The notes beneath the pieces were generated by a model. That model worked only from the letters and a program-made list of their open reading frames with translations, ran no database searches and was not told where the DNA came from. This document shows positions 57,715 through 64,000 of a stretch of 64,000 nucleotides of DNA, one piece after another. The position numbers and the translations under genes were made by a program. The stretch is from Aureimonas frigidaquae (GTDB lineage Bacteria; Pseudomonadota; Alphaproteobacteria; Rhizobiales; Rhizobiaceae): contig NZ_BBWR01000007.1 of the NCBI RefSeq assembly GCF_001463905.1, positions 62,001 through 126,000 of the forward strand, given 5' to 3'. How positions within the stretch are numbered: the stretch's first letter is position 1; each line of letters opens with the position of its first letter.

Positions 57715-59595
57715 TCAGGCGCGGCCGATGGCTTTGGCCTTCTCCTCTTCGTACCACCACAGGGATTCGACCGGGAAGCCGTAATCGGGCTTCTTCGGCA
57801 ACATTCCGAACATATCCCAGTAGGCGACGTTGCGGGAGGATGCGGCAATGTTCGGCACCCAGTCGAGCCGCGCCCGCAGGATCCGGTCCAGGCACCGCAT
57901 GAGCACGACGAGCTCGTCGCGCGATTGCGCCGCCCCGACGCGGGCGATGATGGCATCGACGGCCGGGCTCGCCATTCCGGGGTAGTTGTAGCCGCCCTGC
58001 ATCTCCCGCGTCCCGCTGCCGAAGAAGAGCTTCAGGCCCTCGGGCGTCGGCGTGGCGGAAAGCTGGAAGGCCGACAGCATCATGTCGAAATCGAAGCTGT
58101 TCTGGCGCGCCTGGTACTGTGCCGCGTCGACCAGCCGGAAATCGGCATCGACGCCGATGGCGCGCATATTGCCGATCATCTTGCCGTAGACACGGGTCTG
58201 TTCGGGATCGTTGATCATGTACTCGACACGCAGCGTCTCGCCCGCGGCATCGATGAGATGCTCGCCCTTGCGGACCCAGCCGGCCGCTGCCAGAAGGCGG
58301 CTCGCATCGCGCAGGAGCGCACGGTCGAAGCCGCTGCCGTCCGATACGGGCTGCACCCAGACCGGGCCGAAGACCTCCTGCGGCAGGTCGGCGGCCAGCG
58401 GCTCCAGAATGGCGCGCTCTTGGGCCGAGGGTGCCCCTTCCGCTACGAATTCCGAACCCTCGAAGCAGGAATTGGCGTGCCGCCGCAGCCCGAACATGAG
58501 GTTGGCGTTCGTCCACTCGAAATCGAAGCACAGGTTCAGCGCGCGCCGCACCCGCGGATCGGCAAAGCGCGCGCGCCGTTGGTTGAAGGCCCAGCACTGG
58601 AAGCGCGGTTGCCGGTTGTCCGGGAACTCCTTGCGGACGATCCGGCCGTCCCGGACGGCCGGAATGTCATATTCCGTCGCCCAGGCTTTGGTCGTGAATT
58701 CCTCGCGGCAGGTCACGTCGCCTTTCTTGAAGGCCTGCAAGGCAGCCTGCCTGTCGCGGTAGAACTCGATGCGCAGGGTCTGGAGATGATCGAGCCCGCG
58801 CGCGAAGGGCAGGTCTGCCGCCCAATAGTCCGCACGCCGCTCATATTCGATGTAGCGCCCCGCCTCGTAGCGCCCGACACGGTAGCGCCCGCTGCCGGGA
58901 ATTTCTTCCATGGTCACCCGCGCGAAGCTGCGCGCATCGAAGAAGCCCTTGCGCAGGATGGGAATTCCGGCCATCGCGCCCAGTGCCGCCGGCACCGTCT
59001 GCCGGCCGGAAAAGACGAGCCGGACGGTCCCTGCATCGAGCGCCGTGATGCTGGTGACTTCCGCCAGCGCCATGACAAGGCTCGGATGCCCGTCCGCCTT
59101 CAAGGTCTCGTAGCTGAAGACGACATCCTCTGCGGTGACCGGCTCGCCGGTGGCAAAGCGCGCCTCCGGCCGCAGGGCGAAGGTAAAGCTGTTGGCATCG
59201 GCGCTCATGGTCACCGTCTGCGCCAGGGCGCAGTAGATGGCGTCCGGCTCGTCGAGCGAGGAGACCATGAGCGAATCATAGAGCTTTTCCATGCGGGGCG
59301 GTGCATTGCCCTGCAGGACGAGCGTATTGAGCGTATCGAAAGTATCGGGCGCCTGGTTCAGGATCCAGTTCGGCACGGTCATGACCATCCGGCCACCCGT
59401 CGGCGCGTCCGGATTGGCATAGGCGAACTGCGTGTAGTTGGGCGCATAAGCAAGCTCGCCGAAGGCGGAGAGCCCATGCAGCGGCGTATCGGCCGCGTTT
59501 CCGGCAAAGGCGCGGCGCGGGGCCGTCAGCCCGGCGGCCGCACCAGAAAGAAGCAGCCCGTTGAAGCCGCGCCGGCTCAGCCAGAAGCCGGTCAT
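57715..59595 (-). CDS. yejA: Extracellular solute-binding protein, YejA-like (second copy)
   Basis: Periplasmic family 5 peptide-binding protein, 626 residues. The start has a twin-arginine signal (SRRGFNGLLLSGAAAGLTAPRRAFA). Features include GELAYAPNYTQFAYANPDAPTGGRM near the mature N-terminus and FADPRVRRALNLCFDFEWTNANLM in the centre, characteristic of YejA. The ATG overlaps the stop of the first yejA gene by 4 bp. Two paralogues may widen substrate range; the ligand is unknown. Confidence 0.92.
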   Translation of the reverse strand: MTGFWLSRRGFNGLLLSGAAAGLTAPRRAFAGNAADTPLHGLSAFGELAYAPNYTQFAYANPDAPTGGRMVMTVPNWILNQAPDTFDTLNTLVLQGNAPPRMEKLYDSLMVSSLDEPDAIYCALAQTVTMSADANSFTFALRPEARFATGEPVTAEDVVFSYETLKADGHPSLVMALAEVTSITALDAGTVRLVFSGRQTVPAALGAMAGIPILRKGFFDARSFARVTMEEIPGSGRYRVGRYEAGRYIEYERRADYWAADLPFARGLDHLQTLRIEFYRDRQAALQAFKKGDVTCREEFTTKAWATEYDIPAVRDGRIVRKEFPDNRQPRFQCWAFNQRRARFADPRVRRALNLCFDFEWTNANLMFGLRRHANSCFEGSEFVAEGAPSAQERAILEPLAADLPQEVFGPVWVQPVSDGSGFDRALLRDASRLLAAAGWVRKGEHLIDAAGETLRVEYMINDPEQTRVYGKMIGNMRAIGVDADFRLVDAAQYQARQNSFDFDMMLSAFQLSATPTPEGLKLFFGSGTREMQGGYNYPGMASPAVDAIIARVGAAQSRDELVVLMRCLDRILRARLDWVPNIAASSRNVAYWDMFGMLPKKPDYGFPVESLWWYEEEKAKAIGRA

Positions 59596-61631
59596 TGGCT
59601 GCCGCCGTCGAGTTGCGCCGGATCGGGGGCGACGACATCCGGCGTGCCCGGCCGAACCCACCAGGAGAAGGGGTCGAGCCCGGCATAGGCGGGCTGGCGC
59701 TCGGGCATTTCGAGCTTGTCCCAATAGGCCAGCCAGATATCGGGATTGTGCCATTGCGGAACGACATAGTTGTTCCACAGGAGCACGCGATCGAGCGCCC
59801 GCGTGGCGGAAACGAGGGCTTCCCGATCGGGCGCGAAGACGATCTTGTCGATGATGGCGTCCACGGCCGGGTTGCGGATGCCCGCCAGGTTGCGGCTGCC
59901 CGGCTGCGACGCCGCCGCGCTGCCCCAGAAATCGCGCTGCTCGTTGCCGGGCGAAAGCGACTGCGCGAACTGGCCCGTCACCACGTCGAAATTGAAGTTG
60001 TCGACACGCGCCTGGTACTGCGACGTATCGACGATCCGCACGTCGGTCCTTATGCCGAGCCGGCGGAGCTGGTTGGCGAAGGGCTCAAGGATGCGGCTGT
60101 CATTGGGGTCGTCGCCCAGGAACTCGATGCTCAGCACCTCGCCCGTATCGGCCTTGACGAGGTCCGAGCCACGGCGCTCGTAGCCGGCCTGCTTCAGAAG
60201 GTCGAAGGCTTCGCGCAGGAACTGGCGCTCCGCATTGGGGGCGCTGTAGTCGGGCAGGCTGTAGGCTTGCGCGAAAAGTTCGGGCGGCAGATCGCCGGCC
60301 AGCGGCTTCAGGATCTCCAACTCGTCCTCGCCCGGCAGGCCCTTGGCGGCAAGATTCGTGTTCTGGAAGAAACTGTCCGTCCGCCGATACAGCTCGTAGA
60401 AGAGCGTGCGGTTCATTTCCTGGAAATTGAAGGCCAGGACGAGCGCACGGCGCACGCGCGGGTCGGCGAATTTCTCGCGGCGTGTGTTCAGCACATAGGC
60501 CTGCATGGGCTGCACGCTGGCCGATGGAAGCGCCTCCTTCTTGACGCGGCCGGAGTTGAAGGCCGGGAAGGTGTAGCCTGTCGACCAGCGCCCGGCGCTG
60601 TTCTCGGCCCGGTAGTCGGCAAAGCCGCCGCGCTTGAAAGCTTCCCAGGCGGCATTGGCATCGCGGAAATAGGTGTAGTGGACCTTGTCGTAATTGTAGC
60701 GCCCGATGCGCGTGGGGTGATCCTTGGCCCAATAGTCCGGCACCCGTTCCCAGGTGATGGTGTTCCCGGTATCGAAGCTCGCCACGCGGTAGGGGCCGGA
60801 GCCGAGCGGCGGCTCCAGGGTCGGCTCCTCGATGTTGCGTTTGGCGCCCTGCGCGTTGGTGCCTTCCCAGTAATGGCGCGGCAGGACGACGAGATCGCCC
60901 ATGATGTTGGGCAACTCGCGATTGCCCGTCTGGTCGAAGCGGAAGGTGACTTCGCCCTCGCCGGTCACCTCGGCCGCCGTGACGTTGTGGTAGTAGTTGG
61001 CATAGAGCGGATAGAGGCGGGTGACCGTCTGGAAACTCCAGACGACATCGTCGGCGGTGATCGGCTGCCCGTCATGCCAGCGCGCCGCAGGATCGATGCG
61101 GAAGGTGACGGAGCTGTAATCGGCGGGGTAGCGCATGGCCTCCGCGATCAGGCCGTGGCTGACGCCCGGCTCGTCCAGTGCCTGGTCCATCAGCGTGTCG
61201 TAGGCGAGGCCGCCGCCGAAGGCCGCGAAGCCGGCCGCTGCCGTTCCCCGCAGGACGAAAGGGTTGAAGCTGTCGAAGCTGCCGGCGCCGGCCAGGTTCA
61301 GCGTCCCGCCTTTGGGCGCGTTCACATTGACGTAGTCGTAATGGGCGAAGCTGTCGCCGTATTTGGACGGCTCGATGATGCTGGACCATTCCCGCCATTC
61401 CCCTGCCGATGGGGCGGTGTCGTCAGCCTCGGCCTGCGGTCCCGGCTGGGCAGCGGGCTGGGCGCTGTCGGCGGCGGCGAGTTTCAGCAACCCGCCTTTG
61501 GATGGTTCGGTGCTGCCGGATCCGTCCCGCCATTCCCCCGCCGGAGCGGCGGTATCCTTTGCCGCGGCCGGCACGAGGAACTGGGCCATCATCAGTGCGG
61601 CGAGGGTGGGGGCGAGAATACGTCCGGTCAA
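59592..61631 (-). CDS. yejA: Extracellular solute-binding protein, YejA-like (first copy)
   Basis: Periplasmic family 5 peptide-binding protein, 679 residues, first gene of the transporter operon. TTG at 61631 is chosen: GGAGAG lies just upstream and the protein then begins with a clean signal peptide (ILAPTLAALMMAQFLVPAAA). The body has FADPRVRRALVLAFNFQEMNRTLFYE, as in YejA. Odd feature: residues 26-54 look like a shortened copy of residues 71-116, leaving an extra low-complexity segment before the real mature N-terminus. An ATG at 61793 is less likely. Confidence 0.9.
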   Translation of the reverse strand: MTGRILAPTLAALMMAQFLVPAAAKDTAAPAGEWRDGSGSTEPSKGGLLKLAAADSAQPAAQPGPQAEADDTAPSAGEWREWSSIIEPSKYGDSFAHYDYVNVNAPKGGTLNLAGAGSFDSFNPFVLRGTAAAGFAAFGGGLAYDTLMDQALDEPGVSHGLIAEAMRYPADYSSVTFRIDPAARWHDGQPITADDVVWSFQTVTRLYPLYANYYHNVTAAEVTGEGEVTFRFDQTGNRELPNIMGDLVVLPRHYWEGTNAQGAKRNIEEPTLEPPLGSGPYRVASFDTGNTITWERVPDYWAKDHPTRIGRYNYDKVHYTYFRDANAAWEAFKRGGFADYRAENSAGRWSTGYTFPAFNSGRVKKEALPSASVQPMQAYVLNTRREKFADPRVRRALVLAFNFQEMNRTLFYELYRRTDSFFQNTNLAAKGLPGEDELEILKPLAGDLPPELFAQAYSLPDYSAPNAERQFLREAFDLLKQAGYERRGSDLVKADTGEVLSIEFLGDDPNDSRILEPFANQLRRLGIRTDVRIVDTSQYQARVDNFNFDVVTGQFAQSLSPGNEQRDFWGSAAASQPGSRNLAGIRNPAVDAIIDKIVFAPDREALVSATRALDRVLLWNNYVVPQWHNPDIWLAYWDKLEMPERQPAYAGLDPFSWWVRPGTPDVVAPDPAQLDGGSQ
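61284..61556. repeat. Degenerate internal duplication in yejA
   Basis: Segment 61470-61556 resembles 61284-61421 at protein level: DTAAPAGEWRD...EPSKGGLLKLA against DTAPSAGEWRE...EPSK, then 17 extra residues, then GGTLNLA. The first copy lacks that 17-residue piece. DNA similarity is also visible in both flanks. Confidence 0.7.
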
Positions 61632-61776
61632 ATCACTCTCCGAATCCGGTGGCGGGAATGCGGTCAAGCTGCGGTCAGCTTTGTGGCGGGCTTGGGACGA
61701 GCCCCGTTCATGACGAAAGTTTAATCGGCATGGGGCCCACGGCAAGCACAGCCTGTGATGGCTGTTGCCTTCGGCA

Positions 61777-61808
61777 ATAAAAAAGGCCGGCACTCGCGTA
61801 CCGGCCTT
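61777..61808 (-). terminator. Intrinsic terminator of the cytochrome c gene
   Basis: 8 bp perfect stem (arms 61783-61790 and 61801-61808, 10 nt loop); on the minus strand the stem ends in a run of six T. It terminates the gene ending at 61833. Confidence 0.88.
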
Positions 61809-61832: not shown

Positions 61833-62681
61833 TCAGGGATTGTTGCCCGTCGCCGGCGCGGCCGGCTGCTGCGAGGGGACGGCCTCTCCGGTGGAAGGAT
61901 CGGTCGTGGCCGGCGCCTGTGTGGAGCCCTGCTGCGTGGTCGACGTGCCGGGCTCGGTCACGGCGGGGACACCGTCGGCATCCTGCGTGGCGGCGCCGTC
62001 CTGACCGGATGCGGGCGCAGCCTCCTGGCCCTCGGCCGGAGCAGGCTCCTGACCGGCGGGCGCCGCGGCGCCATCGGCCGGAGCGGCTTCTCCCTCGGCG
62101 GCAGCGGCATCGTCACCGGCTGCTGCGGCAGGCGCAGCCTCCGGCAGCGGAGCCGGGTTGTCGGACAGGGTGCGCAGATAGGCGATCAGATTCGCGCGGT
62201 CCTGATCCTTGTTGATGCCGGCGAAGCTCATGGCCGTGCCGCTGACATACTGGCGCGGATTGTGCAGGAAGCCGTTCAGATGCTCGTAATCCCAGTGGAC
62301 GGAATGATCCTCGCTGAAGGCCATCATGGCGGAGGAGTAGGAGAAGCCCTCGTGAATGGCGATCGGCCGGTTCACGATGTCCCACAGATCGGGGCCGACC
62401 AGGTTCGGGCCGCCCTTCTCACCGCTGTGGCAGGCCTGGCAGCGCTTGAAGATGGCGGCGCCGGCCTCGGCATCGGCCTCCTGCATCAGCACTGCGATGG
62501 GGACGGCGGCCGGAGCCTCTGCATCGCCGCCGCCGGTCTGTTCCTGCGCCACGATGGCGAAGCCCTCGCGCTCGGGCAGCTCGGAGTGGAAGATCGCCTC
62601 GGCGAGCAGGCTGCCGCCGAACAGGACGAAGACCGCACCCAGAATGGCGCCGAAGATCTTGTTGGCCTCGAAGGAATTCAT
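61833..62681 (-). CDS. cycM: Membrane-anchored cytochrome c (CycM type) with long low-complexity tail
   Basis: Class I c-type cytochrome, 282 residues, anchored by one N-terminal helix ([23 protein letters not shown]). Heme attaches at CQACH (residues 81-85) and Met151 in SGTAMSFAG is the likely sixth ligand. CycM carries electrons toward the aa3 oxidase in Bradyrhizobium. Residues from about 174 to the end form an Ala/Pro/Gln/Glu-rich tail of roughly 109 residues that CycM normally lacks. ATG at 62681 gives the usual MNSFE start; ATG at 62702 adds seven residues. Confidence 0.92.
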
Positions 62682-62949
62682 GGACTGGGCGGCTCCCATC
62701 ATCAGCCGGCGATGGCACCGACGAACGGTTCTAAAATTCGCGCGGAAGCTATGTCTTTTGCCCTTTCAAGGCAACACCTGTAGACCGCTCCCGAAGCTTG
62801 GCGACTCGCCCGGCCGCGGCACTGTGCCGTGGCCGCCGCGGGGTCCAGCTTGGAAGTCTTCTTACATTGCCCTGCGCCACGATCAAGCGGTAGTGCCGGG
62901 GGAGCGCTCAAAAGAAGGGGACGGTCGTCGTCCGCAGGAACCATCAGCC

Positions 62950-64000
62950 ATGCGTCCAGTGATTCTCATTCCCGCACGCCTCGCCTCCACCCGGCTGCCC
63001 GGCAAGCCCCTGGCCGATATCGGCGGCGCCCCGATGATCGTGCGCGTCTGCGAGCGCGCCGCGGCCACCGGGATCGGCCGCATCGTCGTGGCGACCGATT
63101 CCGAGGACATCGCCGCAGCCGTGCGCAGCGCCGGCTATGAGGCGGTCCTGACCGTCGGGGACCACATGTCCGGATCCGACCGCATCCACGAAGCGCTGGG
63201 GCAGATCGATCCGGACGGAGCCTACGATACGGTGATCAACCTTCAGGGAGATCTGCCGACGATCGAGCCGGCGACGATCCGCGCCGTGATCGAGCCGCTG
63301 GCCGACCCGGCCTGCGACATCGCTACGGTGGCGGTGCCCTTCACCGGCGGGCCGGATGCCGCGGACCATAGCGTCGTCAAGCTCGTCGGCACGCCGATCG
63401 CGCCCAACCGTCTGCGCGCGCTCTATTTCACGCGGGCGACGGCGCCGGCCGGCGCGGGACCGCTGTTCCACCATGTGGGCATCTACGCCTATCGCCGCGC
63501 CGCGCTGGAGCGATTCGTTTCGCTCGGCGCCTCGTCCCTGGAGCTGCGCGAGAGCCTGGAGCAGCTGCGTGCGCTGGAAGCCGGCATGCGCATCGATGCG
63601 GTGACGGTGGATGCCGTGCCGCTCGGCGTCGACACGGCCGCGCAACTCGAGCTGGCCCGGGCCGCCTATCTGCCGCGCCAGCGCACCAACCGCATCTCAT
63701 TCCAGGGCGAACCGGGGGCCAATTCCGACACGGCCTGCCGCAACATGTTCCCGGACATGGAGCCGCTGCCCTGCGCCACCTTCGAAGACGCGCTCGCGGC
63801 GGTCAACCGGGGGGATGCGGACCTGGCGATGATTCCCATCGAGAACACGATCGCCGGCCGGGTGGCCGATATCCATCACCTTTTGCCAGTGTCCGGGCTG
63901 CGGATCGTCGGCGAGTATTTCCTGCCGATCCGCTTCCAGCTGATGGCCAAGCGCGGCACGCGGCTGGACGATGTGCGGGAGGTCCACAGCCATATCCACG
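62950..64000 (+). CDS. kdsB-pheA: KdsB-PheA fusion: CMP-KDO synthetase joined to prephenate dehydratase (partial)
   Basis: One open frame of 350 codons that runs off the window. Residues 1-240 are KdsB, which activates KDO as CMP-KDO for lipopolysaccharide: [36 protein letters not shown] and [16 protein letters not shown]. After a linker LPRQR the frame continues from residue 246 as PheA, which makes phenylpyruvate: [21 protein letters not shown], then [13 protein letters not shown]. No stop and no ATG or GTG start near the junction separates them. In rhizobia the two are adjacent separate genes beside cycM. A true fusion or a lost stop codon are both possible; the C-terminus is not visible. 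Confidence 0.88.

Follow-up and report, generated by a model that had tools for sequence, protein, structure and literature searches.

In the AroQ-PheA P-protein, known from E. coli and other bacteria, prephenate dehydratase (PheA) carries a second enzyme at its N-terminus, one that performs the preceding step of the same pathway. A rare natural fusion in phenylalanine synthesis joins chorismate mutase to cyclohexadienyl dehydratase, a different dehydratase family from PheA, and its parts likewise share one pathway. Fusions of the AroQ-PheA type arose from neighbouring genes, and the PheA fusions treated in the available portion of the source have chorismate mutase as the partner and, in one case from Shewanella, a DAHP-synthase pseudogene (PMC1173090), while exported chorismate mutase-cyclohexadienyl dehydratase fusions are reported, in the accessible part of another account, in only nine species (PMC10520331). 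Stand-alone KdsB and PheA proteins of the Hyphomicrobiales and other Alphaproteobacteria belong to the same families as the gene considered here and share its order, direction and flanks, with a stop separating the two genes.

In Aureimonas, by contrast, kdsB and pheA form one continuous KdsB-PheA reading frame, a single gene with two functions, seen here in a window (the whole stretch of A. frigidaquae DNA analysed) of 64,000 nucleotides. As in the P-protein, PheA follows another enzyme on the same chain, but this partner, KdsB, belongs to another pathway, unlike the parts of both fusions above. A sequence-only reading of the window had called the two pathways unrelated, which is a fair description though not an absolute one, since both the Kdo and the phenylalanine pathways begin with a phosphoenolpyruvate condensation. 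It is unusual for a fusion across different pathways to become fixed; the present one unites, genus-wide, the apparent sole housekeeping copies of an outer-membrane enzyme and an amino-acid enzyme; in annotation the gene needs two functions assigned. The same reading knew of no bifunctional enzyme of this kind, and we could not find the pairing described either: no account of a KdsB-PheA enzyme emerged from the literature searched, which was largely without subscription papers and comprised, for some queries, 15 of 6,170 and 15 of 192 entries. The available portion of one paper mentions kdsB and pheA apart (PMC2912261).

The fused gene and its two halves

The fused gene occupies 62950..64000 on the plus strand, where the window ends inside it after 350 codons and one base. 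On the same contig (G000:C7:124950-126554, plus strand) the full gene comprises 534 codons including the part past the window, its TAA lying 554 bases beyond the window end. No stop interrupts the frame from 62950 to 63999. It runs from the ATG through a complete KdsB domain (residues 1-240, 62950..63669; NF003948, TIGR00466 and Pfam CTP_transf_3), which closes with Tyr240 at 63667-63669, into a linker of residues 241-245 (LPRQR, 63670..63684) that begins with the CTG of Leu241 at 63670, and on into the prephenate dehydratase domain, which starts with Thr246 at 63685 (63685..64000; Pfam PDT and NF008866). The putative ACT domain would be encoded past the window end. The sequence-only reading had traced this same course, and its coordinates proved exact; its remark that the junction has no usual start also held, as the 20 codons that precede the PheA core (Phe251) in A. 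frigidaquae contain no in-frame ATG, GTG or TTG.

The frame is open 5' of ATG 62950 too, for 732 codons in all. All 21 Aureimonas genomes have an ATG at the aligned position, and the DNA upstream of it is taken up by a divergent gene on the minus strand (61833..62702), named by eye as of cytochrome c type and carrying a CxxCH haem motif. The intergenic stretch at 62703..62949 is, from the gene layout, the presumed promoter region of the fusion on the plus strand. Two neighbouring large genes on the minus strand, 57715-59778 and 59592-61793, appear by eye to encode extracellular solute-binding proteins of peptide transporters.

Both halves match their families at equivalog level. The KdsB half scores 365.6 bits against NF003948 (cut-off 281), residues 1-240 covering profile positions 4-243 of 248, and 178.1 bits against TIGR00466 (cut-off 155.2). 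The PheA match starts at residue 245-249, with Pfam PDT spanning 249-349 of the part inside the window, and this half scores 474.6 bits against NF008866 (PRK11899; cut-off 359) over profile positions 4-280 of 283. Pfam PDT is present in all 21 fused genes of the genus, in which the KdsB motifs Q99 G100 D101 and G226 V227 D228 are invariant; both align with solved KdsB chains, and their Asp residues are those we take to be the metal-binding residues of KdsB. Equally invariant (21/21) is T416 R417 F418 of PheA, presumably its active-site Thr-Arg-Phe motif. With the Pfam ACT model, just two of the 21 genes pass E 0.001, and the ACT region of the phenylalanine-bound structure 6vh5 is covered by both the alignment and the fold match of the fusion. 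No chorismate mutase domain was found in the 21 members, whose Pfam matches are PDT, CTP_transf_3, NTP_transf_3 and ACT only.

Within the genus, pN/pS is 0.37 for the KdsB half and 0.30 for the PheA half, values that come from counts without correction, synonymous differences being near 0.45, and both halves are constrained. The linker codons 238-248, at 0.94, are free to evolve while their length is kept. The fusion is a union of two intact enzyme families, a predicted CMP-Kdo synthetase and a predicted prephenate dehydratase.

Among 19 sequences of solved structures matched at E 1e-10, none covers both halves. An AlphaFold2 model of the fusion protein of Aureimonas sp. Leaf324, built from an 18-row alignment, has a mean pLDDT of 82 (57-81 in the other four models) and shows two domains joined by a short loop; its pTM of 0.57 gives no relative domain orientation. 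KdsB ends with a helix at 230-239 and PheA opens with a strand at 248-252, the join falling in between. In Foldseek, the KdsB half matches E. coli KdsB (3k8e, target TM 0.87, 44% identity) and the PheA half the phenylalanine-bound prephenate dehydratase 6vh5 (target TM 0.90, 69% identity). With about 55% identity, the Leaf324 PheA half also matches GqqA (7am0) from Komagataeibacter; this prephenate dehydratase is reported, in the available portion of the source, to be an N-acyl-homoserine lactone acylase (PMC8192741).

Fused in Aureimonas, no fusion seen elsewhere

A genome search for KdsB-PheA chains found the fusion, free of internal stops, in 21 of 21 Aureimonas genomes, A. frigidaquae included; it is fixed genus-wide and not confined to one strain. 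The other 20 proteins are 65-82% identical to that of A. frigidaquae over the full length. Twenty of the fused genes have 75 nt from the KdsB Gly-Val-Asp to the PheA Phe-Gln-Gly, the remaining one 78 nt, and the junction is in frame and stop-free in every case.

Outside the genus the two genes are adjacent and separate, as the sequence-only reading had stated for rhizobia. Among the best 80 of 569 relatives, all of them named loci, the six from Aureimonas (L055-L060) are fused and the other 74 of 74 are split, and in 33 of 40 genomes outside the genus kdsB and pheA lie, by eye, at most about 200 nt apart on one strand. The flanks agree between fused and split loci: 79 of the 80 named loci carry a homologue of the divergent cytochrome-c-type gene in the same position and orientation, and homologues of nudC, HIT and dnaX (named by eye) stand behind the pair in six of six Aureimonas loci and in part of the others. 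Relatives in which the two genes are separate between the same flanks, a case that the sequence-only reading had set against a fusion, do exist, but only in other genera, where this is likely the ancestral state.

Wider surveys gave the same picture. Among the matches listed for 394 genomes of the family (8 of them Aureimonas), 67 of the 386 others have one that spans the junction, always with one or more stops in it; junction-spanning matches that carry a stop number 41 among those listed for 397 genomes of the order and 17 among those listed for 385 genomes of the class, and A. frigidaquae is the only stop-free genome among the matches listed in the latter two surveys. These counts were made by eye on overlapping sets, and fusions with a long linker would escape them. 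No fusion outside Aureimonas was seen in the genomes examined.

At the level of single junctions, a kdsB stop is present in 142 of 142 distinct split junctions (9 + 59 + 37 + 26 + 11), with spacings of 78-225 nt; L042 is a further split junction, at 508 nt. The spacing motif is absent in 19 loci, of which the 14 named ones are split, as are L163 and L177 (both from G071, stop present) and L212; L203 and L217 hold only one of the two proteins. Certain candidates for fusion outside the genus were rejected. Two genomes with equal open-frame lengths (G033, G048) are both split on reading the DNA. Several class-level genomes showed long open frames; of 16 loci whose DNA was read, 15 are split and the last, L217, has only a PheA match.

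Origin of the fusion

The step that joined the genes can be followed in 28 genomes from 11 other genera, 27 of them next after Aureimonas by DnaX similarity and one (G078) added by hand, none of which holds a fusion. In 20 of the 26 distinct junctions from these related genera the pheA start overlaps the kdsB stop (ATGA, GTGA or TGATG), and 21 of the 26 are 2 mod 3 out of frame; among split junctions of other genera at large, frames 0, 1 and 2 are all found. The spacing in the fused genes does not exceed the shortest split spacing, 78 nt. The sequence-only reading had proposed loss of the kdsB stop as the fusing step; the fusion itself stands, whereas stop loss alone was set aside on the spacing and frame in related genera. 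Because of the overlap, the frame offset and the short fused spacing, a frame-changing deletion that removed the pheA start fits better than stop loss alone, and on these comparisons of sequence the fusion probably needed such a deletion. The ancestral state would have been a neighbouring kdsB-pheA pair, probably overlapping and translationally coupled, from which a short deletion in the ancestry of Aureimonas may have taken away both the stop of kdsB and the start of pheA, leaving the two genes in one frame. Because the pair is still split, and mostly overlapping, in related genera, the passage from translational coupling to fusion is traceable.

Whether this occurred once was examined by phylogeny. 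In a first tree of 84 rows the 21 fused genes form one group (SH-aLRT 97). With the related genera added they do not, and two changes are needed: g126, a genus with split genes, is placed next to G009/G020, a deep pair with the fusion, on long branches and with a support of 81. The split pairs of g126 are L176 and L194 (genomes G216 and G145, respectively). This placement could mean that the fusion split again later, or be an artefact of the tree. On 55 rows, the AU test does not reject a tree constrained to unite the fused genes (p-AU 0.41). A single origin is likely from the trees, with two origins, or a single origin with a later split, as less probable alternatives.

Product of the fused gene and rival readings

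Searches for further copies of either family bear on what the gene does. No second PheA match was found in the 21 Aureimonas genomes at E 0.001, and the fused gene is the only full-length KdsB in 20 of them; second KdsB matches in G003 and G001 are weak and partial only. The exception is A. frigidaquae itself, whose second full-length KdsB is 56% identical to that of the fusion and whose genome also contains the Kdo transferase WaaA family. Given no other PheA and, in 20 of 21 genomes, no other full-length KdsB, the fused gene very probably does both housekeeping jobs.

The reading held with considerable confidence is that one gene yields one bifunctional protein of 534 residues, predicted to consist of two complete enzymes whose domains work independently. 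The N-terminal KdsB would make CMP-Kdo for lipopolysaccharide and the C-terminal half would act as prephenate dehydratase with a regulatory ACT region, the main consequence of fusion being 1:1 production of both enzymes. We infer single-chain translation, both activities and the deletion route. We take the fusion to be structurally harmless and fixed, retained because a join placed after the final KdsB helix and ahead of the first strand of PheA would harm neither domain.

A regulatory gain from the fusion is possible. In its specific form, a putative allosteric protein whose ACT domain senses phenylalanine and alters KdsB activity too, it is improbable; if true, the supply of a lipopolysaccharide sugar precursor would be tied to amino-acid status. 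The fusion protein allows a direct test of cross-regulation against mere tolerance.

Of the rivals to the one-chain reading, the first is that PheA is also, or only, made separately from an internal start, either a rare CTG near the junction or an ATG or GTG inside kdsB. Candidate codons do occur: besides the CTG at 63670 in A. frigidaquae, a CTG placed 11-12 codons ahead of the PheA core is preceded in five genes by a stretch strongly resembling a ribosome site (duplex -5.9 to -8.7), and in a sixth gene such a CTG lies 18 codons ahead (duplex -6.5); seven genes carry an in-frame ATG 22 codons before the core and four a GTG at 24, one of these four also a TTG at 18, and one gene has an ATG at 10 codons. 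No such position, however, is conserved over the 21 genes, 19 of which lack ATG, GTG and TTG within 20 codons before the core. An independent PheA start would, moreover, leave the frame free, as in other genera where all frames occur; that all 21 fused junctions are in frame counts against separate initiation. This rival is distinctly improbable.

It is very improbable that the whole chain is made and then cut by a protease in the linker to give two free enzymes. The linker codons are under little constraint and the linker is a loop in the model, as cleavage would allow, but no conserved cleavage motif is visible there and the length of the linker is nearly invariant. The case that one half is enzymatically dead and carried along by the other is more improbable again: it could draw on the second KdsB of A. 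frigidaquae, yet the other 20 genomes have no such copy, none of the 21 has a second PheA match, and both halves are constrained and score above their equivalog cut-offs. An assembly or sequencing error, such as a base error or indel hiding a stop near the junction, which the sequence-only reading had envisaged, is of negligible probability and is refuted by the congeners, since 21 different assemblies show the same stop-free junction, and three of these (G003, G005, G007) consist of a single contig each.

The stand-alone second KdsB of A. frigidaquae lies outside the window on another contig (G000:C2, locus L034, 9685-10425, minus strand). Within L034 8678-11393 it stands between KdsA-like and KpsF-like genes, in what appears by eye to be a capsule polysaccharide locus.
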